Shown here in pieces: positions 14,982-60,900 of a DNA stretch of 64,000 nucleotides. The position numbers were made by a program, and so were the translations under genes. This stretch comes from Aurantibacillus circumpalustris. Lineage in GTDB: Bacteria; Bacteroidota; Bacteroidia; B-17B0; Aurantibacillaceae. The notes below the pieces were generated by a model that did no database searches, was not told the origin of the DNA, and was given only the letters and a program-made list of their open reading frames with translations. The stretch covers positions 1,922,001 to 1,986,000 of the forward strand of contig NZ_CP121197.1 in NCBI RefSeq assembly GCF_029625215.1. Direction: 5' to 3'. Every line of letters starts with the position of its first letter. The stretch's first letter is position 1.

Positions 14982-15515
14982 AAATAATTGATGTTAGGCA
15001 GGTTTTGCTTTTGCGCCTATGCAAATTTATTAGAAAAGCAAGTTAGAACTCAGTTAATCGGAATAACTTATTAAAAAAACATCGATGAATACCTGTTATT
15101 CGTCGATTAATGTTGAAAATTAACCTACAAATACTGAAAATGGCTATTTAGCCATGATAGTTTATCTTGTGAAATACTTTAACTAAATATGGGGAGTATA
15201 AGAGAATTTCAAATTGCAGTGCTTTAGAAACTTAGTCGGTTTTTCTGACAACAGAGTAATTTGATATTCAAAATCAGCTCGATAACGCGTAAAATGTCGA
15301 GACTTGCTATTTAGATTGTTTTTTCGGAAATTTTTATAGAATCAACGAAAACCCAGCTTCAAAAGTTGTTTTTGCATTATAAATCGTCTTGAATTATTAA
15401 AATGACCGTTTGAATGAGTGAATAACTTTGAAAATAGACCTAACTCATCTAATTTTACAATAGATACAAATCGTAATTTAAAGTGATATGTATTACTAAA
15501 CAAAAAACAACTAGC
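14982..15515. other. 534-bp intergenic region between divergent envelope genes
   Basis: Contains a candidate leftward -7 box TAAATTTG (minus strand, 15029-15022), a ten-base stem with one wobble pair (15082-15091 with 15097-15106, five-base loop), a seven-base perfect hairpin (atggcta/tagccat, 15140-15155) and a good rightward promoter at 15427-15457. No tRNA or convincing small ORF is seen. It may hold a long leader or a small RNA. Confidence 0.5.
15427..15457 (+). promoter_or_regulatory. Candidate promoter of the 1,713-residue adhesin gene
   Basis: TTTG (15427-15430), 19 bp, then TAATTTTA (15450-15457), seven of eight to TAnnTTTG with correct -33 spacing. Transcription would start near 15464, about 50 nt before the start codon at 15516. 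Confidence 0.55.
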
Positions 15516-35423: not shown

Positions 35424-35879
35424 ATGACAAAACCTTCTTTTGATGAAATTTATATGGAGCTAGCTGAAAAGCTTGCGCTCCGTTCGCACTGTGTAAAGGC
35501 ACAAGTAGGAGCTGTTTTAACCAAGGATACACGAATAGTTTCTTTAGGATACAACGGTCCTCCGGCAGGTACACATAATTGTGATATCGAATGGCCAACA
35601 GAGGGCTGTCCAAGAGATAGCAAAGGAAGTTGCTCGCTTGCATTACATGCTGAACAAAACGCAATTCTTTACGCAACCAAAAACAATGTCAGTATGCAAG
35701 ATGCTACACTTTATGTAACACTTTCTCCCTGCATTTCTTGCGCACGGGTTATTTTTACAACAGGAATTAAAAAAGTTTTTTTTAAAGATAGCTACGCCAA
35801 CTACAAAGGACTCAAAAATGATGAAGGCGTTGATTTTTTAAGAAGGTTCGGTGTTGATGTTATTCAATATAAAAAGTAG
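35424..35879 (+). CDS. dCMP deaminase (ComEB-like)
   Basis: 151 residues of the zinc-dependent cytidine/deoxycytidylate deaminase fold. His75 and Glu77 in HAEQNA and Cys103/Cys106 in SPCISCARV give the zinc site and proton shuttle. The loop GYNGPPAG and the cysteine-containing GCPRDSKGSC match the dCMP deaminase/ComEB branch rather than tRNA adenosine deaminase. The enzyme makes dUMP for thymidylate synthesis. The small basic protein gene begins directly after its stop codon. Confidence 0.93.
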   Translation: MTKPSFDEIYMELAEKLALRSHCVKAQVGAVLTKDTRIVSLGYNGPPAGTHNCDIEWPTEGCPRDSKGSCSLALHAEQNAILYATKNNVSMQDATLYVTLSPCISCARVIFTTGIKKVFFKDSYANYKGLKNDEGVDFLRRFGVDVIQYKK

Positions 35880-36462: not shown

Positions 36463-39400
36463 ATGAAGAAGATTTATTTAGCAGTTGTATTGGTTATTTT
36501 TGCAAGCTTATCAGCTTTGGCTCAAAATGATAATGGGGCAATTAAGATAACTTTGAAGGATAAGAGCACAGGAGAAGCAATCCCTTTTGCGAATGTAGTG
36601 GCTTATAAAGATGGCGTCCAGGTTGGTGTTGCGACAACGAACATGGATGGTGAAGCATTCATCAAACCTTTAACACCTGGAAAATATACCGTTAAGGGTA
36701 TTTATATTGGTTACCAAGCAGCAGAAGTAAAAGATGTGGTTGTTGGTGAAGGAAAAACCTCTTATGTTCCAATTAATCTTGCAAATGGAGAAGGAGTTAA
36801 TTTAGAAACTATCGACGTTATTGCTTATCAGGTGCCGCTTATTGATCCAGATACAAAATCAGGGGCTACCGTTACTCGTGAAGATTATCAAAACCTTGCC
36901 ACAAAGGATATTAACTCTGTTGCGGCAACTACAGCAGGTGTTTATCAAGCGGATGAAGGAAGTAAAATTAATATTCGTGGAGGTCGTGATAATAATGCGA
37001 CATACTTTGTAGATGGAGTTAAGGTTTTCGGTACGCCGAGGTTGCCACAGCAATCCATTGAACAATTACAGGTTATTACTGGCGGAGTTCCGGCAAGTTA
37101 TGGGGACTTAACATCAGGTGCGATATCAATTTCTACACGCGGCCCGCAGTCAAAGTATTTTGGTGGCGTGGAATTAATTTCTTCACAGTTAACAGACAAG
37201 TTCGGATACAATTCGATTGGTTTTAGTTTAGGAGGCCCTTTATACAAAAAGAGAGACTCAACAAGAAGAACAGTTCTTGGATTTTTCGTGTCAGGTCAAG
37301 GAAATTATATAAAAGAACCAAGCCCGTCTTTTGTTCCAATTTATGTTTTAAAAGACGAAAAGTTGCAACAAGTTAAGGAAAACCCTTTAACACCGTCGCG
37401 TTCAGGAACCGGTTATGTGCGCAGTTCTGAGTTTGTTACAAAGGATGATATGACAACTCAAAGGTTTCGTCCCAATGCAGTGTTTCGTTCATTGTCATTA
37501 AATGGAAAATTGGATTATCAGCCTACCAATAATACGAATGTGACTTTGGGTGGTTTTTATGAGTATTCAGATCAATTTAATGCTACAAACACTAACCCCG
37601 CAGTGGCTTCAAACGCCATGTTTAATTCTAATAACAATTCACAAACAATCAATACTACCTGGAGAACTAATCTTTCTATCACGCAAAAGTTCGGTAATGC
37701 AACGGCTGACAAAACAAAAACCCAATCGTTATTATCCAACTCTTACTTTAAGTTCTTAGCCAGTTACGAAAAAGTAATAGCAACCACACAAAGTGCGCAG
37801 CATAAGGATAACGTTTTTGATTATGGTTATATAGGAAACTTTGAAATACCTCGTTCTACTTATATGAATGCTTATAACTATGATTTTACTCCAGATTATC
37901 AGCCAACATCTGGTTCTCTGGCAACTCCTTCGTATACCTATTTAGGGGATAGAACAGGAGGCGTAAAATTCACACCTGGCACGCAAAATCCAGATGCTGC
38001 GTTATACACAAGTTGGTTGGCAGCACATACTGCTACACGCTTGTTTACCATGGACTATATCGCGGCCAACAACGGACTTAGAAATGGTGATCAACCTGCT
38101 ACTATTTATAATTTGTTTAATAGTTTTGGATTCGGTAATTCTGTTTATAGGAAGCAAACCGATGAGCAAATTAGAATTACAGCAAGTTTTAATACAGATA
38201 TTAAAAATCATGCTTTAACTTTTGGGCTTGAGTTTGATCAAAGATCTTTAAGTTACTTTGGCTTGAATGCAACAGCTCTGTGGACAAGGATGAGACAAAT
38301 TACCAATCAACACACTGCTCAGCTTGATAAATCAAATCCACATCTTAATACTGAGTTATCGGGTGTAATTCCTTACTATTATTATGATTATTTGTACCAG
38401 GAAAACCAACAAACTCAGTTCTCTGAGAAATTACTTGAAAAATTAAATCTACCGAAAAATCATACGGGTTTTGTTAATACCGACGCCATTGATCCGTCTA
38501 TTTTAAGCCTTGATATGTTCAGTGCTGAGGATCTTTTAGGAACAACTGATAACGCCAACTTGATTAGCTATTATGGTTACAGTCATGATGGAAAGAAAAC
38601 TGGTGGTAAAACTAATATTAATGATTTCCTTGAAAAGAAGGATGACAGCGGTAGAAATACGTTACCAATTGGCGCATTTAGGCCAATTTATTCTTCAGTT
38701 TACATCATGGACAAGTTCGATTTTAAAGACATCAAGTTTTTAGCTGGATTCCGTGTTGATAGGTACGATGCAAATCAACAAGTATTAAAAGATAAATACT
38801 CTTTGCACGAGTTGGCTAAAGTAAGTGATTTAGGATCTCTTGAAAATCTTCCTGCTGGCTTTACAGATAACATTCCTGGCAATATCTCTAAGGACGCTGC
38901 TGTTTATGTTGCGCAAAATCCTCAGGGTGGAAAATCTCCACTAGCAATACTTGGTTATAGAGAAGGTGACAAATGGTTTAACTCTGAGGGGAATGAAATA
39001 TCAGACCCTAATCTTATTTCAACTTCTGATGGGCGTCCAATTCCCTTGTATAAGGATATGGCCAATTATGATAAAAAAATGTCTATCGGAGCTTTTGAAA
39101 ATTATATTGCGGCTATTAACCCTCAGCCACGTTTAGGATTTTCATTTCCAATTTCAGATGTCGCCAATTTCTTCGCACATTATGATTGGTTAATACAACG
39201 ACCAACGAATAATCAATTAAATCCTTTGGATTATTATTTTCTGAATGCATCACAACAAAATCCTCTTATACAAAACCCAAATCTTAAGCCGCAGCAGACC
39301 ATTGATTATGAATTAGGATTCGCACAAGTTTTAAACGAAAGAAAAAACGCTGCTTTAACCATCACATCTTTTTACAAAGAGTTTAGAAATCAAATCAATC

Positions 39401-40197
39401 AGCGCGTTGTAGTCGGAGCTTATCCTAAAAATTATATTATGTATGATAATATTGATTTTTCTACCGTTAAAGGACTATCGCTCAAATTTGAACTCAGAAG
39501 AACAGGCGGTTCGCAAATTAATTTTAATTACACACTCCAATTTGCCGAAGGTTCAGGCTCAAATATTAATTCCGGTGCTAACTTAGCCTCTAGTGGTCAA
39601 CCAAACCTACGTGTACTCCAACCGTTAGATTATGATCAACGTCATAGTTTTGTATTGTCTTACGATTACCGCTTTGGTAGTAAAAAGGATTATAAGGGAC
39701 CAACTTTTAAAACCAAAAAAAATAAAACAATTCAATTCTTAGAAGATGTTGGATTCAATTTCACTTTCTTATTAGGATCAGGAACTCCTTACACGCGTTG
39801 GAATACAGCGGTGCCTATAAATGGTGGCGGACGTTCGAGTATTGTAGGACAAATTAATGGTTCATCTAAGCCATGGCAATTTAGAGCTAATTTAAGAATT
39901 GATAAAAATATTGCTTTGGAGTGGGGAAAAAATGAATCAGATAACAAAAAGACAGCCAATCTAAATATTTATTTACAGATTTTGAATTTGTTTAACACAA
40001 GTAATGTTATCAACGTTTATCACTACACGGGTGCTTCTGATGATGATGGTTATTTGCAATCAACTCAGGGACAAAATGCATTGTCTATAACTAATAGTGC
40101 TGCAGCTTTCTCTGATATGTACAGCATAAGAATGAATGCACCTAATAATTATAGCTTACCGAGACAAATACGCATAGGAGTTTTATTTGAATTTTAA
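36463..40197 (+). CDS. TonB-dependent outer-membrane receptor with carboxypeptidase-like N-domain
   Basis: 1,244 residues. Signal peptide MKKIYLAVVLVIFASLSALAQ, then a CarboxypepD_reg-like domain (about 25-110; STGEAIPFANVVAYKDG). The plug domain (about 130-230) shows INIRGGRDNNATYFVDGVKV and ITGGVPASYGDLTSGAISI. The rest is a 22-strand beta-barrel ending PRQIRIGVLFEF, with the terminal aromatic residue required for outer-membrane insertion. It belongs to the TonB receptor group that is not SusC: no SusD partner follows. Instead the next genes encode a giant secreted protein (ATG 11 bp after this stop) and a PorV-like barrel. The substrate could be a large polymer or the adjacent cargo. A 250-bp AT-rich leader precedes it. 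Confidence 0.92.
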   Translation: MKKIYLAVVLVIFASLSALAQNDNGAIKITLKDKSTGEAIPFANVVAYKDGVQVGVATTNMDGEAFIKPLTPGKYTVKGIYIGYQAAEVKDVVVGEGKTSYVPINLANGEGVNLETIDVIAYQVPLIDPDTKSGATVTREDYQNLATKDINSVAATTAGVYQADEGSKINIRGGRDNNATYFVDGVKVFGTPRLPQQSIEQLQVITGGVPASYGDLTSGAISISTRGPQSKYFGGVELISSQLTDKFGYNSIGFSLGGPLYKKRDSTRRTVLGFFVSGQGNYIKEPSPSFVPIYVLKDEKLQQVKENPLTPSRSGTGYVRSSEFVTKDDMTTQRFRPNAVFRSLSLNGKLDYQPTNNTNVTLGGFYEYSDQFNATNTNPAVASNAMFNSNNNSQTINTTWRTNLSITQKFGNATADKTKTQSLLSNSYFKFLASYEKVIATTQSAQHKDNVFDYGYIGNFEIPRSTYMNAYNYDFTPDYQPTSGSLATPSYTYLGDRTGGVKFTPGTQNPDAALYTSWLAAHTATRLFTMDYIAANNGLRNGDQPATIYNLFNSFGFGNSVYRKQTDEQIRITASFNTDIKNHALTFGLEFDQRSLSYFGLNATALWTRMRQITNQHTAQLDKSNPHLNTELSGVIPYYYYDYLYQENQQTQFSEKLLEKLNLPKNHTGFVNTDAIDPSILSLDMFSAEDLLGTTDNANLISYYGYSHDGKKTGGKTNINDFLEKKDDSGRNTLPIGAFRPIYSSVYIMDKFDFKDIKFLAGFRVDRYDANQQVLKDKYSLHELAKVSDLGSLENLPAGFTDNIPGNISKDAAVYVAQNPQGGKSPLAILGYREGDKWFNSEGNEISDPNLISTSDGRPIPLYKDMANYDKKMSIGAFENYIAAINPQPRLGFSFPISDVANFFAHYDWLIQRPTNNQLNPLDYYFLNASQQNPLIQNPNLKPQQTIDYELGFAQVLNERKNAALTITSFYKEFRNQINQRVVVGAYPKNYIMYDNIDFSTVKGLSLKFELRRTGGSQINFNYTLQFAEGSGSNINSGANLASSGQPNLRVLQPLDYDQRHSFVLSYDYRFGSKKDYKGPTFKTKKNKTIQFLEDVGFNFTFLLGSGTPYTRWNTAVPINGGGRSSIVGQINGSSKPWQFRANLRIDKNIALEWGKNESDNKKTANLNIYLQILNLFNTSNVINVYHYTGASDDDGYLQSTQGQNALSITNSAAAFSDMYSIRMNAPNNYSLPRQIRIGVLFEF

Positions 40198-40207
40198 AGA
40201 CAGGAAC

Positions 40208-43200
40208 ATGAAAAAAATAATAATAATTTTAGCAGCAGTATCAACTACAGCCTTATTTGGTAGGGAAAAAGTTGCCTCAGAACGACCTTCTGGTTCTTCA
40301 TCAGGTGGTGGTAACAGAGTAATGGCAAATTGTGCTGCACCTAACGCCAGTCAGGAATTAAGATTTAATAATGTAAGAACCATTATTTTTAGTGGTGGAG
40401 ATATGTGGTGGGACAGAAATGGCAACGGAAATGCCTTCTACTATATTCCTAGTGTGGCTAATAGAAATACAGGCGTTTCATCTAGTTTCGCTGGATCTAT
40501 ATGGCTTGGAGGATTAGATGCTGGTGGGCAATTAAAAATCGCTGCTATGACCTACCGTCAGAGTGGTATAGATTTTTGGTCTGGGCCATTGGATACAATA
40601 AACGCTTCGGCAGATCCTGCTGTGTGTGCTAAATACGATCAAATTTACTCTATTTCAAGAGCTGAAGTTGAAGAGTTTTCAACTGGAGTAATTCCGTCCG
40701 CAGCAATTTTGAACTGGCCAGGAAATGGAGACGTGAGTAAAAGACAAGGTAAATATTTGGCGCCATTTGTTGACGTAGATAACGACGGTGTTTACGATCC
40801 TGCTGGAAGTCGCGATTATCCTGCTTACGATATTGACAATAAAGCTGAAAAAGATAATCTTGGTTTTTGTAAAACAAAGTTATTTGGTGACAATACTTTA
40901 TTTTGGGTATTTAATGACAATGGAGGTATTCATACCGAAACTCAGGGCGTTCCAATTGGAGTGGAGGTAAGAGCTCAAGCATTTGCATTTAAAACAAATG
41001 ATGAGATTAATAATATGACCTTCTATAGTTATGAAGTTTTTAATCGTTCTTCATTTCAATTGAATCAGACTTATTTTACAATTTGGAACGATGCCGATCT
41101 AGGATACTTCCTGGATGATTACGTTGGTTGTGATGTTAAGAGGGGTTTAGGATATATTTACAATGCAGATCCATTTGATGAAACTGCTATGGGAACTAAT
41201 GGTTATCAAGATTACCCACCTTCTTTAGGTTGCGATTTTTTTAAGGGTCCACTGGCTGATTTGAATGACGGAATAGACAATGATCAGGATAATGGGACAG
41301 GTCTTCTTCACAGCGGTATAGATGAAGCAGGTGAAACAATTCAAATGAGCCGTTTCACTTATTACAATAATAACTATGGTGCATTTCCTCCACAAACTGT
41401 AAATCCCGATATTGCCATCCATTACTATAATTACATGACAGGTAGATGGAAAGATAGCTCACCATTTACTGTTGGTGGAAATGCTTATGGTGGAACTACT
41501 CCTTCAACATTTGTATATGATGGTAACCCAGTGACTGGCACAGGTTGGACGGAAAAGGGTTCTGGTAATCCTCCAGGTGACAGAAGGTTTCTTCAATCTG
41601 CAGGACCATTTACTCTAAAACCTGGTGCAGTAAATGAGATTACGTTTGGAATGCCATGGGCTCAAAGTTCGAGTAAAGGTGGAAATATTCAATCGCTTGA
41701 TTTAATGTTTAACGCTGATGACAAAGCTCAAGCATTGTTTGATAATTGTTTTAAACTTCTTGATGGGCCAGAGGCACCAGTTATGACTATTCAGGAAATG
41801 AATAATGAGTTAATATTTTATTTAGTGAACGAAAAGGGTAAAAATAACTACAAACAATTCAATAATGATTACGCAGAAGAAGATATCTCAATCGTTTCAG
41901 ATCCATCTTCAAGTAACTTAGCTTTAAGAAATCCCGATAAGTTTTATAAATTCGAAGGATATATTGTTTATCAAGTTAAAAACGAAGGTATAACCTCTAC
42001 TGACCTCAGTGATCCAACAAAAGCAAAAGTTGTTTTTCAGTGTGATATTGAGAACGGACACGCTAGACTTACTAATTTTGAACAAGATAATATTAGAGGC
42101 GGTTTTGTGCCGACAGTTAAGGTAGAGGGTGAGGATAAAGGAATTAGGACTTCATTTAAAATTACTGATGATGCGTTTTCTACTCTGGAAAACAGAAAAC
42201 TAGTTAATAATAAGCAATACTTTTTTCTTTGTGTAGCTTATGCCTTTAATGAATACCTGCCGTATAAACCTGACATATCACCGTCTCAAAGTTCATCAGA
42301 AAACTACCTTGGTCAAAAAAGACCTTATCTAGAAGGACGAAAATATAAGCGTGCTTCAGGTACACCTCATAATACCGATCTTGAAAAAGGAGGAACACTG
42401 TCTCAGTCATTTTATGGCTTTGGTCCAAAAATTACAAGAGTTGAAGGTCAAGGTAATGGTGGAAATATGTTAACGCTTACGAAAGCTTCTGAGGATGAAA
42501 TTGTTACTAATTTTTTCAAAGCCGACATTACTTATGAGAATGCGCAAGGACCTTTGAATATTAAAGTTGTAGATCCTTTAAATGTTAAGGATTCTAAGTT
42601 CAGTTTTAAATTCATTAATTATAATAAAAACTCCACTGGACCAACAACAGATGCAAATGCTATGATACCTGTAATTTCCTCAGGATCTGTTTCTTCTTAT
42701 AAAGGCACAATAAACACGTTAAATGTGCAAAATACAAGTTGGGAATTAAAAGATCTTGTGAGTGGAAAAAAATATTACTCAACAGAAATAAACAGTAAGT
42801 CTGCATTATCTGATACGATTTATCAAACGATAAAAGTTGGTAATGAGTTTTATTTCCCTGATTTAGGTTTCTCTGTTAATATTAAACAGGTAGCTGATCC
42901 AGGTGAAAGAATAAATCGATTTACTGATTTTAAAGGGCTAACAGAAGATTCGGCTTACACAGGCCCATCACCTGGTTCACTTATTGGAGCAAGTATTTCT
43001 TATCTAAACGGTCAGTCTAATTGGTTAAATTCGGTTCCTGATTTTGATTTCGCAAACCCTTATAATTGGATTTTGTCAGGATCAACAAAGTCAGAGGGTC
43101 TCGAAGATGCTTATTACAAATTATCAACCGCAAATAAAGTTCAAGCTTTTTATGATCCAGACAAACAGTATGGGCAGATCCTTGGTGGTACCTGGGCGCC

Positions 43201-44692
43201 ATATCCGCTTACGGCTTCTTATTATTCGGTTGCTCCAGGCCCGCAGGGTAAATATCCAGGTAGATGCTTTGGTGGACCAGGGTTTGATGGTAGAGTTTGG
43301 GAGGAAGATGAGAATTTAAAAGCACTATTTGGACAACTTCAGACTTCAACAAATAGCACGCCAGGTAGGTTAAATACCGATTTGAGAAAGTTGAGTAGTA
43401 CATTGGTAGTGTTCACAAAAGATAAATCCAAGTGGACTCGTTGTGTTGTACTCGAAATGCAAGAAAAATCAATTCTAAGTGAAGGTAATGCAATCTTCTT
43501 TTCACCAAGAAAGCATGCTTCCGTTGATAAGGATGGTAAACCGGCAGCGGTTGGTTCCGGCACTAGTTCTTCTTCATCCGATCCGAATTTCATCTCAGAA
43601 ACAAGCATGGGATGGTTTCCAGGCTATGCTATTAATATTGAGACTGGCGAACGTTTAAATATGGCTTTTGGTGAAGATAGTTATCAGAAAGAAAATAATG
43701 GTAATGATATGATTTGGAATCCTACAGCAAATTATGATTTCCCTTATCGTTTCTCCATGGGAGGTAAACATTTTGTTTATGTATTTGGTGGTAACTCAAT
43801 TAAATCTACTTTTTATTCAAGTGCTGCATACGCTTACAAATGGATAAAAGATTTAGATAACAAAGAAAGTTTTGTGGGGCCATACGATTACGGTAAGAGA
43901 ATGATTACCATTTTGAAAAGTTACTTTACAACTGAAGTGTTTTCTGATAATAAACCGCAGAACGGCGGAGCCCTCGATGCTTTAAATTGCGTTGAGCGCG
44001 ATATCATGTGGGTTTCAATACCAATGCCTGCTCCAGGTTTAGAATTTAAAACTCCTGACCTCATGCCTTCTGATGTTAGGGTTCAAATAAATGTAACCAA
44101 ACCTTACCGCTATGGATGGTCAGGTATTGCTAATTTGCCCTATGCGGCACAACCATATGGTACAGTAAATACATTGTTAAGTGTAAACAACCCAAGTTTG
44201 TTAACTGATGACATTAAAAAGTCTGACGTTCAAAATAACAATTTTCCAATGTATACATTCAATACGAACGATATTTCCACTTTGTATCAACAAGAGGGAA
44301 TAGCGAAGAACGCGATGGATAGAATTAATATTGTTCCAAATCCTTATTATGGATCTTCTGCCTACGAGACCGGCAGGGCTGATAATAGGATTAGAATAAC
44401 TAATTTGCCGAGTAAATGTACAATTAAGATATTTACTATGAATGGAACGCTAATAAGAACAATTAAACGTGATGTAACTGATCAAGAGGATTTATATACT
44501 GGTGTTTCAGGCGGCGTTGGAGACTTAAAAACATCTAAACGTAGTTCGTTTGTTGAATGGGATTTGAAAAATCAAAATAATATTTCTGTAGCTAGTGGAC
44601 TCTACATTTTTCATATTGATGCGCCTGGAGTTGGAGAGAAAATACTTAAATGGTTTGGCGTTATGCGCCCATTAGATGTTCAAAGCTACTAA
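40208..44692 (+). CDS. Giant secreted protein with type-A-like T9SS C-terminus, partner of the TonB receptor
   Basis: 1,495 residues from the ATG at 40208, the start that exposes a signal peptide (MKKIIIILAAVSTTALFG); the ATG at 40187 lies inside the receptor gene. The N-terminal third has aromatic and Asp-rich motifs (FSGGDMWWDRNGNGNAFYY, FVDVDNDGVYDPAGSRDYPAYD, LNDGIDNDQDNG) that look like calcium-binding loops. A middle part has short fibronectin-like segments (KFYKFEGYIVYQVKN). The end, INIVPNPYYGSSAYETGR followed by LYIFHIDAPG and GEKILKWFGVMRP, is a FlgD-like/type-A sorting domain. No enzyme motif is recognised. It lies between the receptor and a PorV-like protein, with which it is surely cotranscribed. 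Confidence 0.88.
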   Translation: MKKIIIILAAVSTTALFGREKVASERPSGSSSGGGNRVMANCAAPNASQELRFNNVRTIIFSGGDMWWDRNGNGNAFYYIPSVANRNTGVSSSFAGSIWLGGLDAGGQLKIAAMTYRQSGIDFWSGPLDTINASADPAVCAKYDQIYSISRAEVEEFSTGVIPSAAILNWPGNGDVSKRQGKYLAPFVDVDNDGVYDPAGSRDYPAYDIDNKAEKDNLGFCKTKLFGDNTLFWVFNDNGGIHTETQGVPIGVEVRAQAFAFKTNDEINNMTFYSYEVFNRSSFQLNQTYFTIWNDADLGYFLDDYVGCDVKRGLGYIYNADPFDETAMGTNGYQDYPPSLGCDFFKGPLADLNDGIDNDQDNGTGLLHSGIDEAGETIQMSRFTYYNNNYGAFPPQTVNPDIAIHYYNYMTGRWKDSSPFTVGGNAYGGTTPSTFVYDGNPVTGTGWTEKGSGNPPGDRRFLQSAGPFTLKPGAVNEITFGMPWAQSSSKGGNIQSLDLMFNADDKAQALFDNCFKLLDGPEAPVMTIQEMNNELIFYLVNEKGKNNYKQFNNDYAEEDISIVSDPSSSNLALRNPDKFYKFEGYIVYQVKNEGITSTDLSDPTKAKVVFQCDIENGHARLTNFEQDNIRGGFVPTVKVEGEDKGIRTSFKITDDAFSTLENRKLVNNKQYFFLCVAYAFNEYLPYKPDISPSQSSSENYLGQKRPYLEGRKYKRASGTPHNTDLEKGGTLSQSFYGFGPKITRVEGQGNGGNMLTLTKASEDEIVTNFFKADITYENAQGPLNIKVVDPLNVKDSKFSFKFINYNKNSTGPTTDANAMIPVISSGSVSSYKGTINTLNVQNTSWELKDLVSGKKYYSTEINSKSALSDTIYQTIKVGNEFYFPDLGFSVNIKQVADPGERINRFTDFKGLTEDSAYTGPSPGSLIGASISYLNGQSNWLNSVPDFDFANPYNWILSGSTKSEGLEDAYYKLSTANKVQAFYDPDKQYGQILGGTWAPYPLTASYYSVAPGPQGKYPGRCFGGPGFDGRVWEEDENLKALFGQLQTSTNSTPGRLNTDLRKLSSTLVVFTKDKSKWTRCVVLEMQEKSILSEGNAIFFSPRKHASVDKDGKPAAVGSGTSSSSSDPNFISETSMGWFPGYAINIETGERLNMAFGEDSYQKENNGNDMIWNPTANYDFPYRFSMGGKHFVYVFGGNSIKSTFYSSAAYAYKWIKDLDNKESFVGPYDYGKRMITILKSYFTTEVFSDNKPQNGGALDALNCVERDIMWVSIPMPAPGLEFKTPDLMPSDVRVQINVTKPYRYGWSGIANLPYAAQPYGTVNTLLSVNNPSLLTDDIKKSDVQNNNFPMYTFNTNDISTLYQQEGIAKNAMDRINIVPNPYYGSSAYETGRADNRIRITNLPSKCTIKIFTMNGTLIRTIKRDVTDQEDLYTGVSGGVGDLKTSKRSSFVEWDLKNQNNISVASGLYIFHIDAPGVGEKILKWFGVMRPLDVQSY

Positions 44693-44712
44693 TCACAAAG
44701 GAAGTAAAGACT

Positions 44713-45783
44713 ATGAAAATAAATTTAAAATATTTGGCTATACCAGTTTCGTTGGCACTTGGATTGAGTGTTAATGCAGGTAATCCTGAACGTACAGGGC
44801 AGGCTGGAGCCAGTCAGTTATTGATTAACCCTTTCGCTAGAAATACAGGAATGGCTGGTTCAAATTCCGCTAGAGTGAGAGGCTTAGAAGCACAGTTCTT
44901 AAATGTAGCTGGGACTGCTTACACGCGTAAAACAGAGGTTCTTTTCAATCGATCAAACTGGTTGCAAGGAACCGATATTTTTATAAACACTTTTGGTATA
45001 ACTCAGGGAATTGGTGAAACTGGAACAATTGGATTAGGTGTTGTTGCTATTAACGCCGGAAAGATTCCTATTACAACAGAGGAGCAACCAGAAGGAGGTT
45101 TAGGAACATATAGTCCTTCCTTCTATAATATTAGTTTATCATATGCTAAAATGTTCTCTGATAATATTTTCGGTGGAGTTAATTTTAAATTGGTAAACGA
45201 ACAAATTCCCAATGCGGCAGCGCATGGTTTAGCAATTGATGCTGGTATACAGTATCATACTGGTAAATACGATCAAGTCCACTTTGGTATTGCGTTAAGA
45301 AATTGGGGTCCGAAAATGAGTTATGTAGGTGACGGATTAAGTCGTCAGGCGGTTGCAACTTCAATAAACGGGAGCTATGAGTTAACCGTAAATAACAGAT
45401 CTGCTGGTTTTGAATTACCAACCATGGTTAATATTGGAGCGTCTTACGATTTCTATTTAACGAAGGATTCTACAGGTTTATTAAAACAACATCGTTTATC
45501 CATTCATGGTAACTTTACGTCTAACTCATTTAGTTATGATAACGGTATGGTTGGACTTGAATATGCTTGGAAAGAAATGCTCATGTTTAGAGTTGGATCT
45601 TTTGTTGAAAAAAACATGTTTAATGATGATCAGAGAAGAAATGCTTTTACTGGGCCTTCTGCTGGTTTAACATTTGAAGTTCCGTTTAATGAGAAAAAAT
45701 CAACAATAGGATTGGATTATTCTTACCGTTTTAGTAATCCTTTTGGAGGAACACATTCCTTTGGATTAAGGTTGAACCTTTAG
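44713..45783 (+). CDS. PorV/PorQ family outer-membrane beta-barrel
   Basis: 356 residues from the ATG at 44713, which gives a signal peptide (MKINLKYLAIPVSLALGLSVNAG); the ATG at 44650 lies inside the upstream gene. The mature N-terminus, QAGASQLLINPFARNTGMAGSN, is the hallmark of the PorV/PorQ family, FadL-like barrels that bind T9SS cargo signals and shuttle cargo to the attachment complex. The barrel ends in an amphipathic strand (FGGTHSFGLRLNL). Its place as third gene after a TonB receptor and a T9SS cargo suggests a dedicated, not housekeeping, PorV. A terminator follows at 45812. Confidence 0.9.
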   Translation: MKINLKYLAIPVSLALGLSVNAGNPERTGQAGASQLLINPFARNTGMAGSNSARVRGLEAQFLNVAGTAYTRKTEVLFNRSNWLQGTDIFINTFGITQGIGETGTIGLGVVAINAGKIPITTEEQPEGGLGTYSPSFYNISLSYAKMFSDNIFGGVNFKLVNEQIPNAAAHGLAIDAGIQYHTGKYDQVHFGIALRNWGPKMSYVGDGLSRQAVATSINGSYELTVNNRSAGFELPTMVNIGASYDFYLTKDSTGLLKQHRLSIHGNFTSNSFSYDNGMVGLEYAWKEMLMFRVGSFVEKNMFNDDQRRNAFTGPSAGLTFEVPFNEKKSTIGLDYSYRFSNPFGGTHSFGLRLNL

Positions 45784-45802: not shown

Positions 45803-45811
45803 TTAATATAA

Positions 45812-45848
45812 AGAGTCCCGGTGATTATCGGGATTCTTTCTTTTTTTA
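45812..45848 (+). terminator. Terminator after the PorV-like gene, or greA leader hairpin
   Basis: gagtcccg pairs with cgggattc (one G-U wobble, eight-base loop, 45813-45820 and 45829-45836), followed by tttctttttttt. It ends the receptor operon and may also terminate short greA leader transcripts. Confidence 0.85.
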
Positions 45849-45860
45849 AACCAGATAGAT

Positions 45861-46331
45861 ATGGCAATAGGATATTACACAGAAGAGGGGTTACAAAAGC
45901 TAAAAGATGAATTACATCAATTAAGATCTGTAGAACGTAAAGTAGCCACTCAGGCTATTGTGGATGCAAGGGATAAAGGAGATTTAAGCGAAAACGCAGA
46001 GTATGATGCTGCACGTGAGGCTCAAGCATTGCTTGAACTGCGTATTGCAAAGCTAGAAGACGTAATTGCAAATGCCAGAATTGTGGATGAAACAAAGTTA
46101 GATCTCAGTAAAGCAAGTATTCTTACAACAGTAAAAATAAAAAATCTCAAAAATGGAGCTTCTATGAAATATACTCTGGTAGCTGAAAACGAAGCGGATC
46201 TTAAGATTGGTAAAATATCTGTTGATTCTCCAATTGGTAGGGCTTTACTTGGTAAAAAGGTGGGAGAGAAAGTAGATGTGGATGTTCCCGCTGGTAAAAT
46301 GACTTTTGAGGTTTCTGAAATTTCTATTTAA
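45861..46331 (+). CDS. greA: Transcription elongation factor GreA
   Basis: 156 residues, typical GreA length. The N-terminal antiparallel coiled coil (1-75) carries the acidic tip DKGDLSENAEYDAA with Asp41 and Glu44, the residues that reach the RNA polymerase active site through the secondary channel and stimulate cleavage of backtracked RNA. The C-terminal FKBP-like domain has SVDSPIGRALLGKKVGEKVDVDVPAG. The next gene, a HIT protein, begins two bases after the stop, so the two form an operon. Confidence 0.97.
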   Translation: MAIGYYTEEGLQKLKDELHQLRSVERKVATQAIVDARDKGDLSENAEYDAAREAQALLELRIAKLEDVIANARIVDETKLDLSKASILTTVKIKNLKNGASMKYTLVAENEADLKIGKISVDSPIGRALLGKKVGEKVDVDVPAGKMTFEVSEISI

Positions 46332-50439: not shown

Positions 50440-51810
50440 ATGCGAATAATAAAACTTTTTTCGAAAATAATTTTTCCAGTACTAGTTATTTTTTTTGTTA
50501 GCTGTAAAAAAGATCACAGTGTTCTTGGGGTAGATGTTCAGCCAGGTGTAGACGATTTAAATGCTGAAAATATAAGAGGACTTGCTGTTACAGCGCAAAC
50601 TTTACCGTATGATTCAGTTGCTTCTTATGGAGATAATATTAAATTTATAGGAAGTAATAATGATCCTCTTTTTGGCCGATCGGATTATGGCTTGTATTTA
50701 AATACAAATATTAGTGTTTCAAACCTAAATTTCGGTGCTACGTCTACTTTAACCTCAGCTGAATTTGTTTTGGCTGTAAATGCTGATGAATATGCTGGAA
50801 ATAAAGATGCTGCTTTAAGTTACTCAATATTTGCTCTTAATGACACTATTAATAACAGAGTTCCTTATTACACAAATGACACAAGGCATCATGACATTAC
50901 ACCAATTAGTATTAGTGCCACCTCATGGAGTGTTACAGGAGATGGAAAGAGAGTCTTACGAATTAAACTAGATCAAAACTATGCCGAAAAATTATTTCAG
51001 GACAGTGTTAATTTAAAAAATAATGAGGCTTTACAGAAAACATATAAAGGATATTATATTGCTGCAAGCGTTCAAAATAATGACGAGGGGGTTGTTTTTA
51101 AAGCCGATCTGGATGATGTTTTAAGCGGACTCTTTTTGCATTATAAAACCACGAGTTCTAATGATACAATTATAGATTTTAGATTTAGTTTCAGCGGTTT
51201 AACTGCGAAAAGATATAATACGGTGAAGTATACGCCTATTCAAGAAATAAAAGATCAATTTGCCGATTCGACCCTTGGCGCTTCAAAGCTTTACTTAAAA
51301 GGAATGGGAATGACCCGAGTAAAACTTTACATCCCTTTTTTAAAGAACCATTCAGATTCATTTAAAATAGCGGTAAATCGAGCTGAGATAGTTTTAAGTT
51401 TAGATCCTTCAAACACCACTTTAGGAACCTCCATTTATTATGCTCCGCCTAAATTATTGTTGCTTTCGATAGATGATTCAGGTAGGGAGACCTATATTAA
51501 TGATTTAAATAATTCAACGAATTATACCAGATTTGATGGGACTTATAATGCGACAATGAATGCTTATGTGTTTAATATTGCTCTTGAGGCTCAAGCGATA
51601 TTTAGTGGTGAAAAACCTAATCGTGGATTTTATTTAGTGGTTGCAAATGGTGACTTGTCTTTGAAAACAGTTTATGCAACTCAAGATTCCAAAATCCTTT
51701 TACCGGTGAGGCGCGATAGTTATTACGAACGTGTTGTAATAGCAGGAAGTAACAATGCTCAACTCAAACCTGTATTTAATTTAAACTACATTCGGTTTAA
51801 GAACGATTAA
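50440..51810 (+). CDS. DUF4270 lipoprotein
   Basis: 456 residues. A lipoprotein signal peptide ends in the lipobox FFVSC with acylated Cys22, followed by KKDHSVLGVDVQPG; the lack of Asp at +2 and the phylum's rules suggest export to the outer membrane. The body is a long DUF4270 beta-rich region (TAQTLPYDSVASYGDNIKFIGS at its start, KLYLKGMGMTRVKLYIPFL in the middle). The family is confined to Bacteroidota and has no assigned function. It lies after the GT5-like gene but behind a terminator, so it is probably transcribed on its own. Confidence 0.9.
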   Translation: MRIIKLFSKIIFPVLVIFFVSCKKDHSVLGVDVQPGVDDLNAENIRGLAVTAQTLPYDSVASYGDNIKFIGSNNDPLFGRSDYGLYLNTNISVSNLNFGATSTLTSAEFVLAVNADEYAGNKDAALSYSIFALNDTINNRVPYYTNDTRHHDITPISISATSWSVTGDGKRVLRIKLDQNYAEKLFQDSVNLKNNEALQKTYKGYYIAASVQNNDEGVVFKADLDDVLSGLFLHYKTTSSNDTIIDFRFSFSGLTAKRYNTVKYTPIQEIKDQFADSTLGASKLYLKGMGMTRVKLYIPFLKNHSDSFKIAVNRAEIVLSLDPSNTTLGTSIYYAPPKLLLLSIDDSGRETYINDLNNSTNYTRFDGTYNATMNAYVFNIALEAQAIFSGEKPNRGFYLVVANGDLSLKTVYATQDSKILLPVRRDSYYERVVIAGSNNAQLKPVFNLNYIRFKND

Positions 51811-51918: not shown

Positions 51919-54900
51919 ATGATAAAAATTACAAAACTCACATTGTGTTTTTGTTTGGGAATGATTTTGTGCTTCAAAATGAAGTCGCAACTTTCGGGCA
52001 CTTATAATATTCCGACAAACTATCCAAGCTTGTCAGCTGCAATTTCTGATCTTAACGTACAGGGTGTAAGTGGACCTGTGTTTATAGAAATTACCTCAGG
52101 GTATACCGAGACGGCACCTGTTGGAGGTTATAGTCTTACTGCAACAGGTACAGCACTTAATCAAATCACATTTAGAAAAATCGGAGTAGGAGCTAATCCT
52201 TTGATAACGTCTTATGTTGGAGGAACGGGCACTCCAGCTACAGCAACACAGGATGGAGTTTGGCGACTAATTGGATCAGACTATATTACAATTGACGGAA
52301 TAGATATATCAGATCCAAATACCACAAATCCTTCTACAATGGAATACGGTTATGGATTATTTAGAGCAAGCACAACGGATGGTTGCCAAAATAATACGAT
52401 TAAGAATTGTGTGATTAATTTAAGAACTATCAATAATGTAAGTGGTTCTGGTTCCGCAGTTGATGGATCGCGAGGAATTAATTTGGTTAATTCACTTGCA
52501 AATTCACAAACAATCGTTTTAGCGCCGATTTCTTTTGCGGGAACAAACTCGAATAATAGATTTTATGCAAATACAATTAGAAATTGTAATGTAGGAATTG
52601 CCTTAATCGGATACGCTGCACCTAGTCCATTTACCCTTGCTGATAGCGGAAATGACATTGGGGGTTTAAGCAGTTTGCAAGGGAATAACATAATGAATTT
52701 TGGTGGAGCAGTTGCCGCAACTAATCCAGCGGCCGGAGTTAGAACATTAGCACAGTATAATCTTAATGTTTCTTATAATACTTTTAATAACAACGACGGA
52801 TCAGGTGTAAATCATACAAATGCATTAAGAGGAATTTATGTTAATGCGGCGACTAGTGCAAATGTTACAATCACAAATAACACACTTACTTTAAACGGTG
52901 GAAGTGGTAACTCACAAGTTTCGGTAATCGAAAATCTTTCTGGAGCTACTGCAGCAAATAACACTATTACAATAATCGGTAACACACTCTTAAATTGTGG
53001 AAATGCGCTAAACACTACGGGTTCTTTTTTTGGTATTTATAACAATGGAGCGTCTGCAAGTTATTTGGACTTAACGGGTAATACATTTAGTACCGTTGCC
53101 ACAAAAGCAACGACTGGGACAAATTATTTAATTTATAACACAGGTGCTATTGCGAACACTATTAAGATAGATAATAATCTTATTGCTAATTGTACGAATT
53201 CTGCTAGTACTACGGGATTTTATTATTCGATATACAACAATGTTATATCTGCTGCTGCGCTTTCAATGAGTTCTAATACATTTAGCAACAATGTTACAAA
53301 CGCTTCGACCGGATCTACTTATTTAATTTACAATGCTAGCGCAACGAGCAATAATATTACATTAAATAATAATACTATAACTAATTGTGCTAATTCAATT
53401 ACGTCGACAGGCGCTTTTTACGGGATATATAATAATGGAGCTTCAACAGCAAATTTGGGAATATCCGGAAACAGTTTTTTAAATCATCAGGTTAACTCGT
53501 TTAGTGGATCAACGTATTTGATATACAACACGGCTTCAATTAGTGGAGGAATCACGATGAATACAAATCTTGTTTCTAATTGCACGCATTCGGTGACATC
53601 AAGTGGTTCTCTTTTTGGAATATATAACAACGCTTCTTCGTCCACCACCTTAGAAATTAATGATAATATATTTTCTTCAAATACCGCAGCTGTTGTTAAC
53701 GGATCTGTGCATTTAGTTTTTAATCGTGGTTCAAGTACAAATACTTTTGTTAGTACGAGTATGAGTAACAACCTTATTTCCAATTGTAATTTTACCGCAA
53801 CATCGAATGGCCCATTTTTAGGAATTTATAATAATGGTGTTACTAGTGATAATTTGAGTTTATCGAACAATACGCTTACGTTAAACGCTTGGTCTTCTAC
53901 AACAAGCTTAAAATATTTGATTTACAATACTGGTTCGGTAAATACAATTCTAAATTTAAATAACAATGTGATTTCAAGTTGGACAAACACAAATAACACA
54001 ACGGGATCCTTTAATGGAATATATAACACCGGCTCGGTGACTTCTGCGTTAAATATGTGTAATAATACTTTTTCGGCTATTAGCAATGACGCCACTTCTG
54101 GATCAACTTACTTAATGTATAATACAGGTGCTTTAGCAGGGGGAGTTATTACGATGACAAGTAATATTTTTGCAAGTATCTTAAATTCCGCAAACACGTC
54201 CGGGTTTTTTTATGGAATCTATAACAGTGGCACTACTTTTTCTGATTTAAAAATTACAAATAACACGTTCACAAACAATGTTGTTAATTCAGCTACAGGT
54301 GTTACAAATCTTATATATAATACGGGAGCAATTAGTACAAGTATTAACAGTATTAATCTTAGTAATAATTTAATTTCTAACTGTACAACTTCAGTAAGTT
54401 CAAATGGAACTTTTTATGGCATATACAATAATTCAGCTTCCTGTTTAACGTTAACTATAAATAATAATTCATTTTTGAATAACGCGTCGTATGCTAATAA
54501 TGGACAAAGTTATTTCATGTATAACCGCGGATCGGCAGCAAATACTTTTGTAGCCATACATATGAGTAATAATATTATTTCCAACTGTATTAACTCATCG
54601 GCAACTGGTACCTTTTACAGTATTTGGAATAACGGTGTAACTTCTAACATAACAAGTATTCTTAGCAACACAATTACAAATAACGATTGGAATTCTACAA
54701 CAGGAACCCGTTATTTGATAAGTAATTGGGGAGTAGCTTTAAATTCAACTAATATTAGTAATAACCTTATTGCCAACTGTACTAATACAAGTGGAACTAC
54801 CGGGTTTTTATATGGGATTTATAATAACAATAACACTTCAGTTTCTTCAACCTCTTTAATAATAAGTAACAATACATTTACGAACAATGCTTCAGCAGCA

Positions 54901-57900
54901 ACAACTGGCGAAACGCATTTTATTAATAGTAGCGGCTTGTCAAATAATACGTTTACAAGTATTGAAATCTCCAATAATTTAATATCAGGTTGCACGAGCA
55001 CTGTTAGTGCAGGTGGAGCTTTTTATGGAATTTATAATAACACGGCGTCGGCAGATAATATAACTATTAGTCAAAATACTTTCACTAACTCGGTTTTGAC
55101 TTCATCGACCGGCTCAACTTTTTTGATCTACAATAGGGGGGCGGGAGCAAATGTTTTTACGTCGGCAACCTACAGTGCTAATGTAATAGCAAGCGTAACT
55201 TTAGCAAATAATTCCAGTGGAGCATTTTATGGTATTTTTAATAGCGGAGCGGCAGCAACAACGGCCTCATTATTGAGTATTAAGAACAATTCATTCACTA
55301 ATATGGTTTCGTTGTCAACGACGGGGGCTATCAACATAATCTACAATAATTGTCCGGTTTCAAACTCAATTTCGATCACGGATAATTATATTACCAATTT
55401 TACAAATACTCTAAGCACAAGTGGAACATTTTATGGAATCATAAATTCAGGAGCATCATCTGCTGGTGATATAACTATACAGGATAATAAGTTTTTAAAT
55501 TTAATTTCGACAGCGAGCAGTGGAGCGCGCTACCTGATTTATAACAATGGAGCAATTTCTAATTCTATTGTTATCGGGAATAATCTAATTTCAAATTGCA
55601 GTCATAGCATTAGTTTGAACGGTTCTTTATATGGAATGTACAACAACAGTTCTGTATCAGCTGTTCTCGCTTCGATAAATAACAATACACTTACAAATAA
55701 TTTTTCTCTTTCCAATAATGGAAATACATATTTGCTTGTAAATTCAGGGACTTTAACAAACACCTTGGCTACCGTTGGTATCTCAGGTAATGTTATTGAT
55801 AACTATACGTGTAATGCAACAAGTGGTAATTTTTATGGTATCTATAACGCCGGGTACACTTCCGTAGACTTGTCAATAGTTACAAATACGCTTAGTCATA
55901 TTACTCTAACAAGTACAAGTACTAGTCAACAAGGAATATATAACAGCGGGCGAATTACAAATGCCATTTTAATAAAGAATAATTTAGTAGATGGTTACAC
56001 AAATAGGAGCAATGCGGCAGGAAGTTTTTATGGCATTACAAACGTGGCGAGTTTCGCTAACTCTAATTTCCCTGATAATTTAGCAATTGAGGATAATCGC
56101 TTTTTAAATACAGACATAAATTCTACAAGCGGTAGTATTTATTTTGTAAATAATACAGGCGTAAACACCAATACAATTAATTCACTAAGTATTAAGAATA
56201 ATTTAGTTTCAAATTCTAATTATTCAATAAGTTTAAATGGAAGTTGGTTTGGTATTTATAATACAAGTATTGCGTCAGGAAGCCTGAGTTTAAGTAGTAA
56301 TACTCTAGCAAACGTGCAAGCAAATTCTGCAACAAGTAGTAGGTATATGGTATACAATGGTGGTTCAATTATAAACTCTGCTAACCTTTCAAATAACAGC
56401 GTAACTGGCTTTACTAACACTAATAATACTAGTGGAACTTATTATGGAATAAACAACGGCGGTAATTCGCAAGGTGATGTCACGATTGCGAATAATAAGC
56501 TTGTAAATATTCAACTTTCTTCAACTACTGGAGCAGCATACGGTTTATATAATACAGGCAATATTATAAACACACTTCAGATAAATACTAATTTAATTTC
56601 AAATTTAACGCACTCTTCAACTTCATCAGGTGTGTTTTCAGCAGTGTATAATAACAATGTACCAGTAGGAGCTCTTAATGTTTCTGCGAACACATTTACA
56701 AATATTTCGCTGTATTCCTTAAATGGTTCTTCTTATCTGATCTACAATAGGGCTGCGGCCTCAACAACTGTTGGTGTTGTTAATATAAATTCAAATAATA
56801 TTGGAGCTTTTGGTTTCGAAGCCAATAGCGGTTCATATGGTACCATATACAATAGTGGGATTTCATTTGGGAGCATGAGTGTGACTAGTAACACACTTAT
56901 GAATTGTATTTATACCACCACAACAGGATCTCGCTATTTTGTTTATAACACTGGAGCAGGATCTAACTTGAACGTTTCAAATAATTTGGTTTCAGGCCTA
57001 ACAAGTACTCTAAATACTACGGGCTCTTACTACGGCATTAACAATGGTGGAGGTGTTGATGGTCTGATTGCGAGTGGAAATACGTTTTTGAATCACACAC
57101 TCACCGCGACGAGTGGCTCAGTATTTATTATCTATAATACTTCGGCAACTAATAGTTTAATTACGTTCGGAAATAATGTTGTATCAAATTTCAGTTATGA
57201 TGCCACAGGCAGCGGAGGTTTTTTAGGTCTATATAATAGCGCCGCACCCACTCTTAGTTTAAGCATTAACAGCAATACTTTAACAACGCTTTCGCTAAAT
57301 ACTTTAAATGGCGCTACGCATTTTGTTTACAATCGCGGAGCCAATGGTAGTCTGATAAATGAAATATCATTTGCAAATAATAAAATCTCAAGCATTAATT
57401 ATACCGCGACATCAGGATCATTTTATGGGTTATTTAATAATAACAACTCTTTTGCCAATTTAAATATAAGTGGAAATTTTATAAGTAATTTTATTTGCAA
57501 CACAGTAACAAGTCCACGCTATCACATTTTTAATAATGGAAACGGCTCTGGCGATATTAATGTCAATTCAAATTTAGTTTCAAATTACACCTCCTCATTA
57601 AGTACTACTGGTGTTTTTTATGACTTGTTAAACACTGGTAATTCAGGGTCCAATCTTAGTGTGACGGGAAATACGTTTAGTGCCCAGTTACTGGCAACTA
57701 CAACAGGCTCAACATTTGGGATCTACAACTCTGGTTTAATAACGGGTTCGGTTAATATTAATAACAATCTTCTATCTCAATTAAATCATTCATGCACAAC
57801 AGGTGTTTTATTCTCGCTTTATAATAATGGCACAACATGTTCTAATTTAAGTATGAGTGGAAACACTTTATCAACCATTAGTACAAACAATTCTTCGGGA

Positions 57901-60900
57901 TCAAAATTCCAGGTGTATAACACAAGTTCGGCAAGTAACTCTATTCGATTAAACAATAATTCCATTACCAATTATTCAGCTTCATTAAATACTAGTGGAG
58001 ATTTTGCTGGGATCTTTAATCAGGGTAATTCCCAAGGAAGTTTTGATGCAAGTGGTAATTTCTTAACTAATTTTATTTTCCCTGCATCAACGGGTACTTG
58101 TTATGGAATTTTCAATGGAGGTACTGTCGCAACAATAGCCGCTATTAACAATAATCAAGCTTCAGGTGTTTCCTATGTTTCAACAGATGTAGGCACTTTT
58201 TACGGCGTATGTAATCTTGCCTCCACATCTTCTTCACTGAGCGTGAGTGGGAATACAATAAATAACACAGCAGTTAGTGTTCCTTCGGTAGCTTTAAATA
58301 TAATTTATAATTCAGGGACTTCTACCACGCTAATTAATTCAATTAGCATGAATAATAATTCAATTACAAATTTCACCAATACTATTGGAGCAGTTGATTT
58401 TTATGGGATTCATAATACATGCCCTGCATCAGGTTTGTTAAGCTTGGATGGAAATGTATTCGGTAATAATGTGTCAGGGGCGTCAACTGCTAATACTCAT
58501 TTGATTTATAATTCGGCTGCTGTAACAAATTCTATTTCAATGTCAAATAATAGTCTGAGCGCAGGATTTAATAATAGTGTGTCGGGCTATTCAGGGAATT
58601 TATACAGCATTCATAACATTGGTGGCGCAGCATCTACAACTTTAAGTATGAATGGAAACAATTTCTCCTCTTACTTTTTTAGCGGAATGGTAGGAGCCGG
58701 AAATATTTATTTTATTCATAACACAAACAATAATGCGCGTTACGATATAAATAATAACACTTGGTCTAATCTTTTGTTAAATCATAATGGGAATGAATAT
58801 TTAATTTATAATCCGTCTAACACTTCAGCGGAACTTAATGTAAACAGTAATTCGGTTTCCGGATACACGCGTTCAGCTACCGCCGCATCTTTCTATGGTT
58901 ACTATTCAAACGGAAGTTCTCCTGCGGCCTGTTCGCAATTGATTTCTGGAAATAATTTTTCGAACATAGTAGCCGCTACACTTGGAACGGGTTCGTTTTA
59001 TGGAATATTTAATATTGATGGCACTGGAACCTTATTCCCTAAAAAAACAATAAGCAATAATTCTATTTCGAATGTTAACTACCAAGGTCTTGGATTCTTT
59101 TACGGCTATTACCTTGACTTAATGGGGGATAATTCTATAGTAGGTTCTTCAGTTAACACTAACACCTTATCAAGCGTATCTTGGGGCGGACCTCTATACG
59201 GTATTTATGTTGGACCGAGTGTGTCTTCGGGAATTGCTGCAAGTGTTTATGGAAATACAATTCGTAATCTTAATACTTCTGGAACCACCGCAGATGTCAG
59301 TGGAGCCTACTTATCAGCAGCAGGTTATGGTTTAAATTTTTATAAGAATAAAATAAGTGATATAACATCCGGTGGAATACTAGGAACAGCAAATGGTGTT
59401 AGAGTGCCGACCACCACCACCATATCAATAAACAACAATCTAATAGGTAATATCAATACACCAGTTTCATCTGCTGCAAATTCTGTGAATGGAATTAACA
59501 TACTTGGTGGAACACGTGCAAATGTTTTTTATAACACAGTTAATCTGAACACGAGCAGTACAGGAACTGTCTTTAGTTCAAGTGCATTATATGTTTCTTC
59601 GGGTGTTCAAATCGATGTGCGAAATAATATTTTTATCAATACTTCTACTCCGAGCGGAATAGGAAATAGCGTGGCCTTTAGAAGAAGCTTTAGTTCTCTT
59701 GTTAATTATTTAAACTCTTCAAATAATAATATTTTTTACACAGGTATTCCAGCACCTAATCGTTTAATATACGCAGATGCATCAACGGTTAATCAAACAT
59801 TGCCTGCGTTTCAGGTTTTAGTAGCACCTCGTGAAAGTGCTTCCGTTTTTGAGAACACTTCTTTTTTGAGTACTATTGGCACAAGTACAAATTTCCTTCA
59901 CATAGATCCAGCGATTCCTTCCTTGTCTGAAAGTGGAGCCGTAAATGTCTTAACTATTTTCGACGATGTTGATAGCGATGTTCGACAAGGAAATGTTGGG
60001 TATTCGGGTACGGGAACAGCGCCAGATATTGGTGCTGATGAATACAATCAATCACTCTTGTCTTGCACGAGTGCAAATGCAGGAAGCGTTATTGTCGCTT
60101 CTTCTACTATTCAATGTGAGGGCGAAACATTTTACTTACTTTCAACAGGATTTACCGCGGCAGGTGATATTGTTCATCAGTGGAAAGTGTCGACAAACTC
60201 TGGTGGACCATATTCAAACGTTGCTGGTGGAATCGGTGCGAATACTACCGCATATACAACAAGTACCTTAAGCGCTGGCAATTATTATTTTGTTTTAGTA
60301 ACCACTTGTACTCTTGGTTCTATATCGGGGACTTCGAATGAGGTAACCGTTACAGTTAATGCAACACCTTCTGCTTCTGCATCGGTATTGAGCCAAACTA
60401 TTTGTTCAGGAGAGGATTTAGTTTTATCAAGTAATAGTAATATTGGAACTTCCTACTTATGGCAAGGACCAAATAATTTTACCTCTACTTTGCAGAATCC
60501 AACAATTACGCTTGGAGGCACCAATGCTAGCGGACTGTACACTCTTATAGTTGCAGATGTAAATTGCACATCGCTTCCTGTTTTTGTTTCTACCACAGTT
60601 TATCCAACACCTCCTGCGTTTTCGATCAGCTTAGCATCTTCAACAATTTGTATTGGTAATTCTCAAACACTTACTGCTTCTTTGCCAATAACAAATCCAA
60701 CACTCACATTTGGCAGTCAAAGTAATGTGAATCAGACTTCAGGATATCCAGCTCCATACTCACTGTATTATGGAGGTCAAAAAATGCAAATGCTAATTTT
60801 AGCTGGGGAGCTTGCAGCCGCTGGATTTACGACCGGTACACCAATTCAAAGTATTCAATTTCCAGTTAGTTCACTTGGTTCAAATTGGGGTGCATCTATA

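Follow-up and report, generated by a model that had tools for sequence, protein, structure and literature searches.

Three adjacent genes, encoding a TonB-dependent receptor, a giant cargo of the type IX secretion system (T9SS) and an outer-membrane barrel of the PorV family, make up a real operon family of Bacteroidota. The products of this trio probably form one surface assembly, in which the cargo would be docked on its own barrel by an uncleaved C-terminal domain (CTD), would sit over the receptor and would feed import. The trio is described here from a window of 64,000 nucleotides, the whole stretch of DNA analysed (G000:C1:1922001-1986000); the genome is 4.6 Mb in one contig.

The operon and its recurrence

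All three genes lie on the forward strand. The receptor gene (36463..40197) encodes 1,244 aa, the cargo gene (40208..44692) 1,494 aa and the barrel gene (44713..45783) 356 aa. The stop-to-start gaps are 10 bp between receptor and cargo and 20 bp between cargo and barrel. These distances agree with the initial annotation, and so does the terminator which it placed after the trio: a hairpin of 13 pairs, 5 of them G-C, is followed by a T run at 45810..45839 on the same strand. The cargo has a signal peptide, and its start, read from the sequence, has no lipobox. Cargo and barrel starts are taken as the ATGs which open the signal peptides; the mechanical ORFs begin 21 and 63 bases earlier, respectively. 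A sigma-70 scan found 43 sites between positions 35800 and 47000, where shuffled sequence has 38.7 (sd 6.5). No match to the -33/-7 pattern, the promoter consensus of Bacteroidota, lies within the trio or immediately 5' of it; the whole window contains four matches, fewer than the 6.9 expected by chance. Other CTD proteins are also encoded in the window. One of 3,473 residues (51919-62340) has a Por_Secre_tail (type A) CTD as its sole Pfam domain, and sits 3' of a DUF4270 gene (50440-51810); another of 1,724 residues (15483-20657) combines a PKD domain with a CHU_C (type B) CTD.

Relatives of the cargo are present in 144 of the 296 sampled genomes of the phylum. At the loci examined, all ORFs were scored against profiles of receptor, cargo and barrel. 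Two sources of loci were used. The sampled loci comprise 56 places outside the window's genome. The named contigs are the best 80 of 581 relatives, and come from the only search that reached beyond Bacteroidota; two CTD motifs served as bait in that scan, which therefore favours trio-type CTDs. Cargo ORFs shorter than 250 aa were excluded from the neighbour count. For 111 of 149 cargo ORFs (66 sampled and 83 from the best 80 of 581), the same strand carries the receptor gene before the cargo and the barrel gene after it. Within the sampled set, 43 of 66 are intact, which is not a random rate since most of these loci were taken from the head of the list of relatives, with some rows and the weaker genomes left out; a further 7 are at contig ends and 16 have neither partner. 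The corresponding figures for the named set (best 80 of 581) are 68 intact, 8 at contig ends and 7 with neither partner, from 83 cargo ORFs.

Thus 38 cargos are outside intact trios: 15 at contig ends, and 23 with neither partner. Where both flanks are present the partners are always both there or both missing, and no cargo has only one. Among the contig-end cargos, 8 of 15 have no partner on the available side (6 lack the receptor, 2 the barrel). Spacing is tight in the 111 trios; the median gaps are 27 and 28 bp, and on each side 107 of 111 are no longer than 100 bp. A second, weaker group of 20 loci was found with the same profiles. It was chosen by receptor or barrel coordinates, adjacent hits having already been noticed for a few; 19 of these loci have an intact trio with the gene order unchanged, and at the remaining one a contig end interrupts it. 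The arrangement is conserved in both groups of loci and is therefore beyond chance. The recurrence across Bacteroidota that the initial annotation proposed to look for is thus found, in 111 of 149 and 19 of 20 cases. Cargo homologues without the partner genes, which would have spoken against a functional unit if common, do exist, but as a minority (23 of 149). Eleven of these have an ordinary type A CTD, and 12 have the trio type (5 of the 66 sampled cargos, 7 of the 83 from the best 80 of 581).

The barrel and the cargo CTD

The barrel belongs to the PorV/PorQ family, scoring 146.8 bits on NF033709 (PorV_fam; curated cut-off 90), and the best match of its profile in the PDB is PorV (6h3i, E 3.6e-23). 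It differs from PorV, PorQ and PorV2 in falling far below their equivalog cut-offs (57.5 against 250, 62.9 against 220 and 54 against 325 bits). The same genome encodes a separate PorV (beside PorU), PorQ and PorV2 (beside PorU2), and also PorZ. A tree was built of 164 PorV-family proteins. Every one of its 141 trio-type barrels (9 of them classed by score alone) belongs to a single clade with support 0.997, apart from PorV, PorQ and PorV2. The barrel can thus be rejected as the ordinary PorV or PorQ of the genome on three counts: equivalog scores, separate own copies and a separate clade. The clade has one further member, which also adjoins a receptor; a CTD protein is encoded farther on, on the strand that carries it. 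One locus (L230:442-12756) carries a rearranged variant on one strand, consisting of a CTD protein, two other ORFs, a receptor, a PorV-like barrel and a putative lipoprotein. At another (L037:9983-16071), PorV2 directly adjoins PorU2, a further case of a CTD protein beside a PorV-family barrel of its own; both names are 'putative' in NCBIfam.

Barrel and CTD also occur together at the level of genomes. Both the trio-type barrel and the trio-type CTD are present in 145 of 296 genomes, neither is present in 149, and one occurs alone in 2 (G005, G113), at thresholds (barrel E <= 1e-36, CTD E <= 1e-15) that were chosen after the values had been viewed. In 11 genomes the cargo with a trio CTD is cut or has no adjacent barrel; nine of these carry a trio barrel elsewhere, scoring at least 329 bits, and no trio barrel was detected in the other two, G297 and G305, which are MAGs of unstated completeness. 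The dedicated PorV-type partner that the initial annotation suggested is strongly supported, because operon conservation, the tracking of the barrel by CTD type, co-occurrence in genomes and the single barrel clade all point to it. That the barrel is dedicated to the cargo is well supported.

The cargo CTD (44294..44665, +; about aa 1363-1486) is a PorZ-like T9SS signal. It was compared using models built from half the trio CTDs at a time and tested on the remainder, the two halves containing mutual relatives; 142 of the 149 cargos were scored, the 7 cut at the 3' end being omitted. No trio cargo falls below 144 bits on the held-out models, and 11 cargo relatives with canonical CTDs (from 5 loci, all in the sampled set) score at most 12.8 bits. 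All 11 have an ordinary type A CTD (TIGR04183) and none has an adjoining barrel. The association between CTD type and a neighbouring barrel has Fisher values of 1.3e-8 per cargo and 4.4e-5 per locus, which overstate independence because the genomes are related. Trio CTDs are matched by the PorZ model in 38/38 cases, by the type A model in 37/38 (E <= 0.01) and by the PorU model in 30/38; canonical CTDs are matched by PorZ in 0/11 and by PorU in 3/11. The trio CTD is thus related to the type A domain, given the 37/38 matches to TIGR04183. The CTD in the window scores 20.1 bits on that model, below the cut-off of 23, and PorU and PorU2 of the same genome are also slightly under it (21.1 and 20.8 bits). 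On the trio models, CTDs of this genome score 31-35 bits for PorU, 24 for PorU2, 16-18 for PorZ and 2-3 for a type A relative; PorZ thus exceeds the best canonical CTD (12.8 bits) by only a few bits.

Predicted structure gives a similar placement. The best match of the CTD model (mc63ca3c3e1a3) is PorZ (5m11, Z 11.0 over 89 residues). The match to PorU (6za2, Z 8.8 over 94 residues) equals those to unrelated Ig-like domains, and the cargo CTDs of RemA and NucA, which are short fragments, give Z 7.2 and 7.1 over 75 and 71 residues. The trio CTD is therefore a distinct, Ig-like domain nearest to that of PorZ in sequence and predicted fold, although the PorZ of the genome reaches only 16-18 bits on the trio models. 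It ends in a tail of 13 residues (44651..44689, +) which follows an invariant Lys and has an aromatic last residue. The tail length is 13 in 38/38 aligned CTDs of the first group, and 111/111 trio cargos end in F, Y, L or I; the aromatic end is missing in 19/19 cargos of the second group. A W-hairpin pattern, composed after the sequences had been viewed, is found in 131/131 first-group, 12/19 second-group and 3/11 canonical CTDs.

PorZ-PorQ and PorU-PorV, in the T9SS attachment complex, likewise pair a large T9SS-exported protein with a PorV-family barrel, and the CTD of the trio cargo resembles that of PorZ in sequence and predicted fold. The trio differs in that its unit includes a TonB receptor, and in that its cargo, beyond the CTD, has no match to PorZ or PorU. 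Passages in PMC10202324 and PMC5562754 describe PorU and PorZ as retaining their CTDs and staying bound to PorV and PorQ; the cognate PorV-like barrels are there supposed to shield the CTDs from cleavage. The kinship of the trio CTD with that of PorZ suggests a lasting dock rather than a mere delivery shuttle, and lasting docking of the cargo on its barrel is likely. It should be noted that the likeness is no proof of retention, because in RgpB a PorZ-like hairpin did not prevent processing (as given in part of PMC11285876).

Alternatively, the barrel could be a private shuttle only, which would fetch the cargo at the translocon and pass it on to PorU, to be cleaved and then released or anchored to LPS, and the receptor could be co-regulated and no physical partner. 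PorV acts in this manner for P. gingivalis cargo in the relevant part of PMC5562754, type B CTDs have cognate shuttles according to a passage in PMC12618676, and PorU, PorV, PorQ and PorZ are all encoded in the genome. In the type B systems with PorP/SprF shuttles, the gene for the CTD protein is directly followed by that for its own barrel, as in the trio; however, the CTD family and the barrel family are different and no receptor is included. Shuttling alone is an unlikely account, as trio CTDs are nearer to the uncleaved PorZ CTD than to the CTDs of type A cargo, and receptor and barrel are jointly present or absent; the second group likewise has the receptor.

The receptor and the cargo N-terminal domain

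The receptor has a signal peptide, a CarboxypepD_reg domain (aa 27-106), a plug (aa 135-219) and a barrel. It is a TonB-dependent transporter by Pfam, where both the plug (39.9 bits against a cut-off of 23.9) and the barrel (36.1 against 27) exceed the thresholds; no NCBIfam model matches it at E <= 1. Its profile hits 293 of 296 Bacteroidota genomes, so the presence of a receptor is in itself uninformative. The initial annotation described a receptor without SusD. This holds genome-wide for the two SusD Pfam models, PF14322 and PF07980 (SusD_RagB and SusD-like_3), which have no match in G000 and both fire in a Bacteroides control. A Bacteroidota genome of this size (4.6 Mb) would ordinarily have such matches.

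The cargo belongs to no Pfam family, and its NCBIfam match is confined to the CTD part of the PorZ model. A profile of the whole cargo found nothing in the PDB below E 0.1. Weak Pfam hits among 34 cargos (FlgD_ig in 8, Por_Secre_tail in 2 and four others in 1 each) were all that could be set behind a catalytic family, and such an assignment was dropped. The N-terminal domain (40337..41761, +; about aa 44-518) is a predicted super-beta-sandwich and lies within the most conserved part of the protein on the conservation profile. An N-terminal piece of 795 residues was modelled with a mean pLDDT of 86.2 (model m7b12cd048cd5). The best structural match of the domain is a dextran dextrinase (Z 19.3 over 253 residues; Z is 19.3 to 9ju0 and 18.4 to 1ug9), and further matches are glucodextranase, bacterial glucoamylase, and GH94 and GH116 enzymes; Z is 14.8-19.3 over 231-276 residues in the 50 matches listed. 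The predicted model thus has the N-terminal super-beta-sandwich of glycan-active enzymes (GH65, GH94 and GH116 by their entry titles). GH15 enzymes also have this fold. In those enzymes the super-beta-sandwich is followed by an (alpha/alpha)6 catalytic barrel. In the cargo, the part after the domain is predicted to be mostly strands and has no Pfam match, and no (alpha/alpha)6 barrel is apparent. The modelled fold hints at glycan contact; the fold itself is no proof of glycan binding. A fold search with the C-terminal half of the cargo addressed mainly the CTD and leaves the middle (about aa 830-1360) unassigned.

Cargo length in the family ranges from about 1,000 to 1,500 residues. Short relatives of the N-terminal domain with an ordinary CTD and no receptor also exist. 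One such protein of 576 aa (L039:8917-10647; G000:C1 about 1,815,000) has a type A CTD and no adjoining receptor or barrel. Tandem arrays of 2-4 cargo-like proteins with ordinary type A CTDs are found at three loci (L072, L073, L084), and a trio is present elsewhere in the same genomes.

Partial Mantel tests on the 111 trios, whose values are open to distortion by unequal alignment lengths, give the strongest rate correlation for the N-terminal domain and the receptor (0.49). The other values are 0.36 for receptor and barrel, 0.32 for cargo middle and barrel, 0.28 for CTD and barrel, 0.15 for CTD and receptor, and 0.06 for N-terminal domain and barrel; the correlations of the barrel with the receptor and with the cargo middle thus exceed that with the CTD. 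A partnership of receptor and cargo is plausible. The T9SS-secreted lid of a SusCD-like machine, as the initial annotation envisaged it, would fit the all-or-none partners, the rate correlation of receptor and N-terminal domain, and the glycan-enzyme fold of the latter; the cargo perhaps works beside the receptor as a non-SusD lid. In SusC-SusD and BtuB-BtuG, which are pedal-bin transporters, a TonB-dependent barrel is likewise encoded with a potential surface cap. The trio differs in that a T9SS cargo paired with a barrel takes the place of the surface lipoprotein, and in having no SusD match. The Oar-PopC pair of Myxococcus xanthus resembles the trio in the functional link between a TonB-dependent transporter and a secreted protein; it differs in that no CTD and no PorV-type barrel are known for it. 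BtuG is an example of a non-SusD lid on a TonB transporter, as described in PMC10404256.

The cargo could instead be a structural or adhesive surface element, with the receptor as its membrane platform and no import. The locus is surrounded by housekeeping genes (nfu, greA, HIT), the greA neighbour is kept through most of the window's class, and no substrate is known. Against this, the receptor retains its plug and its carboxypeptidase-regulatory-like domain, and a structural role is rather improbable. It is more doubtful still that the receptor aids export or surface assembly of the cargo in place of import. Precedent for this comes from Oar, a TonB-dependent transporter of Myxococcus which is required for the secretion of PopC (PMC6434023, in part). 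However, with its T9SS signal and a private barrel, the trio cargo is already provided for. Sharing an Oar-like domain architecture also says little, because the same part of PMC6434023 gives it as the dominant one among Bacteroidetes TonB transporters.

Chromosomal place and the proposed assembly

The gene greA (45861..46331, +) lies outside the system and is the usual 3' neighbour of the trio in the window's class. Among the 75 trio loci that belong to the window's class or to the named set (best 80 of 581), 66 have it in this place; of the other 9, 4 have one or no downstream ORF. At the 36 loci from other classes greA never follows the trio, which is intact there; the three genes therefore keep together whatever their chromosomal location. 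Although a greA-like gene lies just 3' in 66 of the 111 trio loci and a HIT gene in 63, survival of the trio merely as an old conserved block of chromosome is strongly disfavoured and highly improbable, given the intact trios of other classes and the same gene order in the second group. Chance and plain synteny were rejected on these same grounds.

The preferred model of a docked surface assembly can be set out as follows. Sec would take the cargo across the inner membrane, and the T9SS would take it across the outer one. Its own PorV-family barrel would pick it up by the unusual, probably uncleaved CTD, and the cargo would remain docked there, as PorZ is on PorQ and PorU on PorV. With the super-beta-sandwich domain as its head, the docked protein would be held over the neighbouring TonB-dependent receptor. 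It would probably capture a substrate that is likely to be a glycan or some other large molecule, and hand it to the receptor, which would import it in a TonB-driven manner.

A word search of the titles and abstract starts of the open-licence literature, a scope outside which preprints and most subscription journals fall, returned no description of the trio, and no passage on PorV homologues or TonB turned up in PMC10994853. The trio-type barrel and CTD are nonetheless carried by 145 of the 296 sampled Bacteroidota genomes. Both CTD types occur within one cargo family, where they go along with the presence or absence of the private barrel. The features that separate processed from unprocessed CTDs are still to be determined according to a passage of PMC11285876, and the trio bears on this question of cleaved and uncleaved CTDs. 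The trio may, tentatively, represent a new uptake machine across Bacteroidota, in which a giant T9SS protein, in place of a lipoprotein, serves as the lid of a TonB-dependent transporter and is held through an uncleaved CTD by a dedicated PorV-type barrel. If so, it would join TonB import and type IX secretion, which have hitherto been studied apart.
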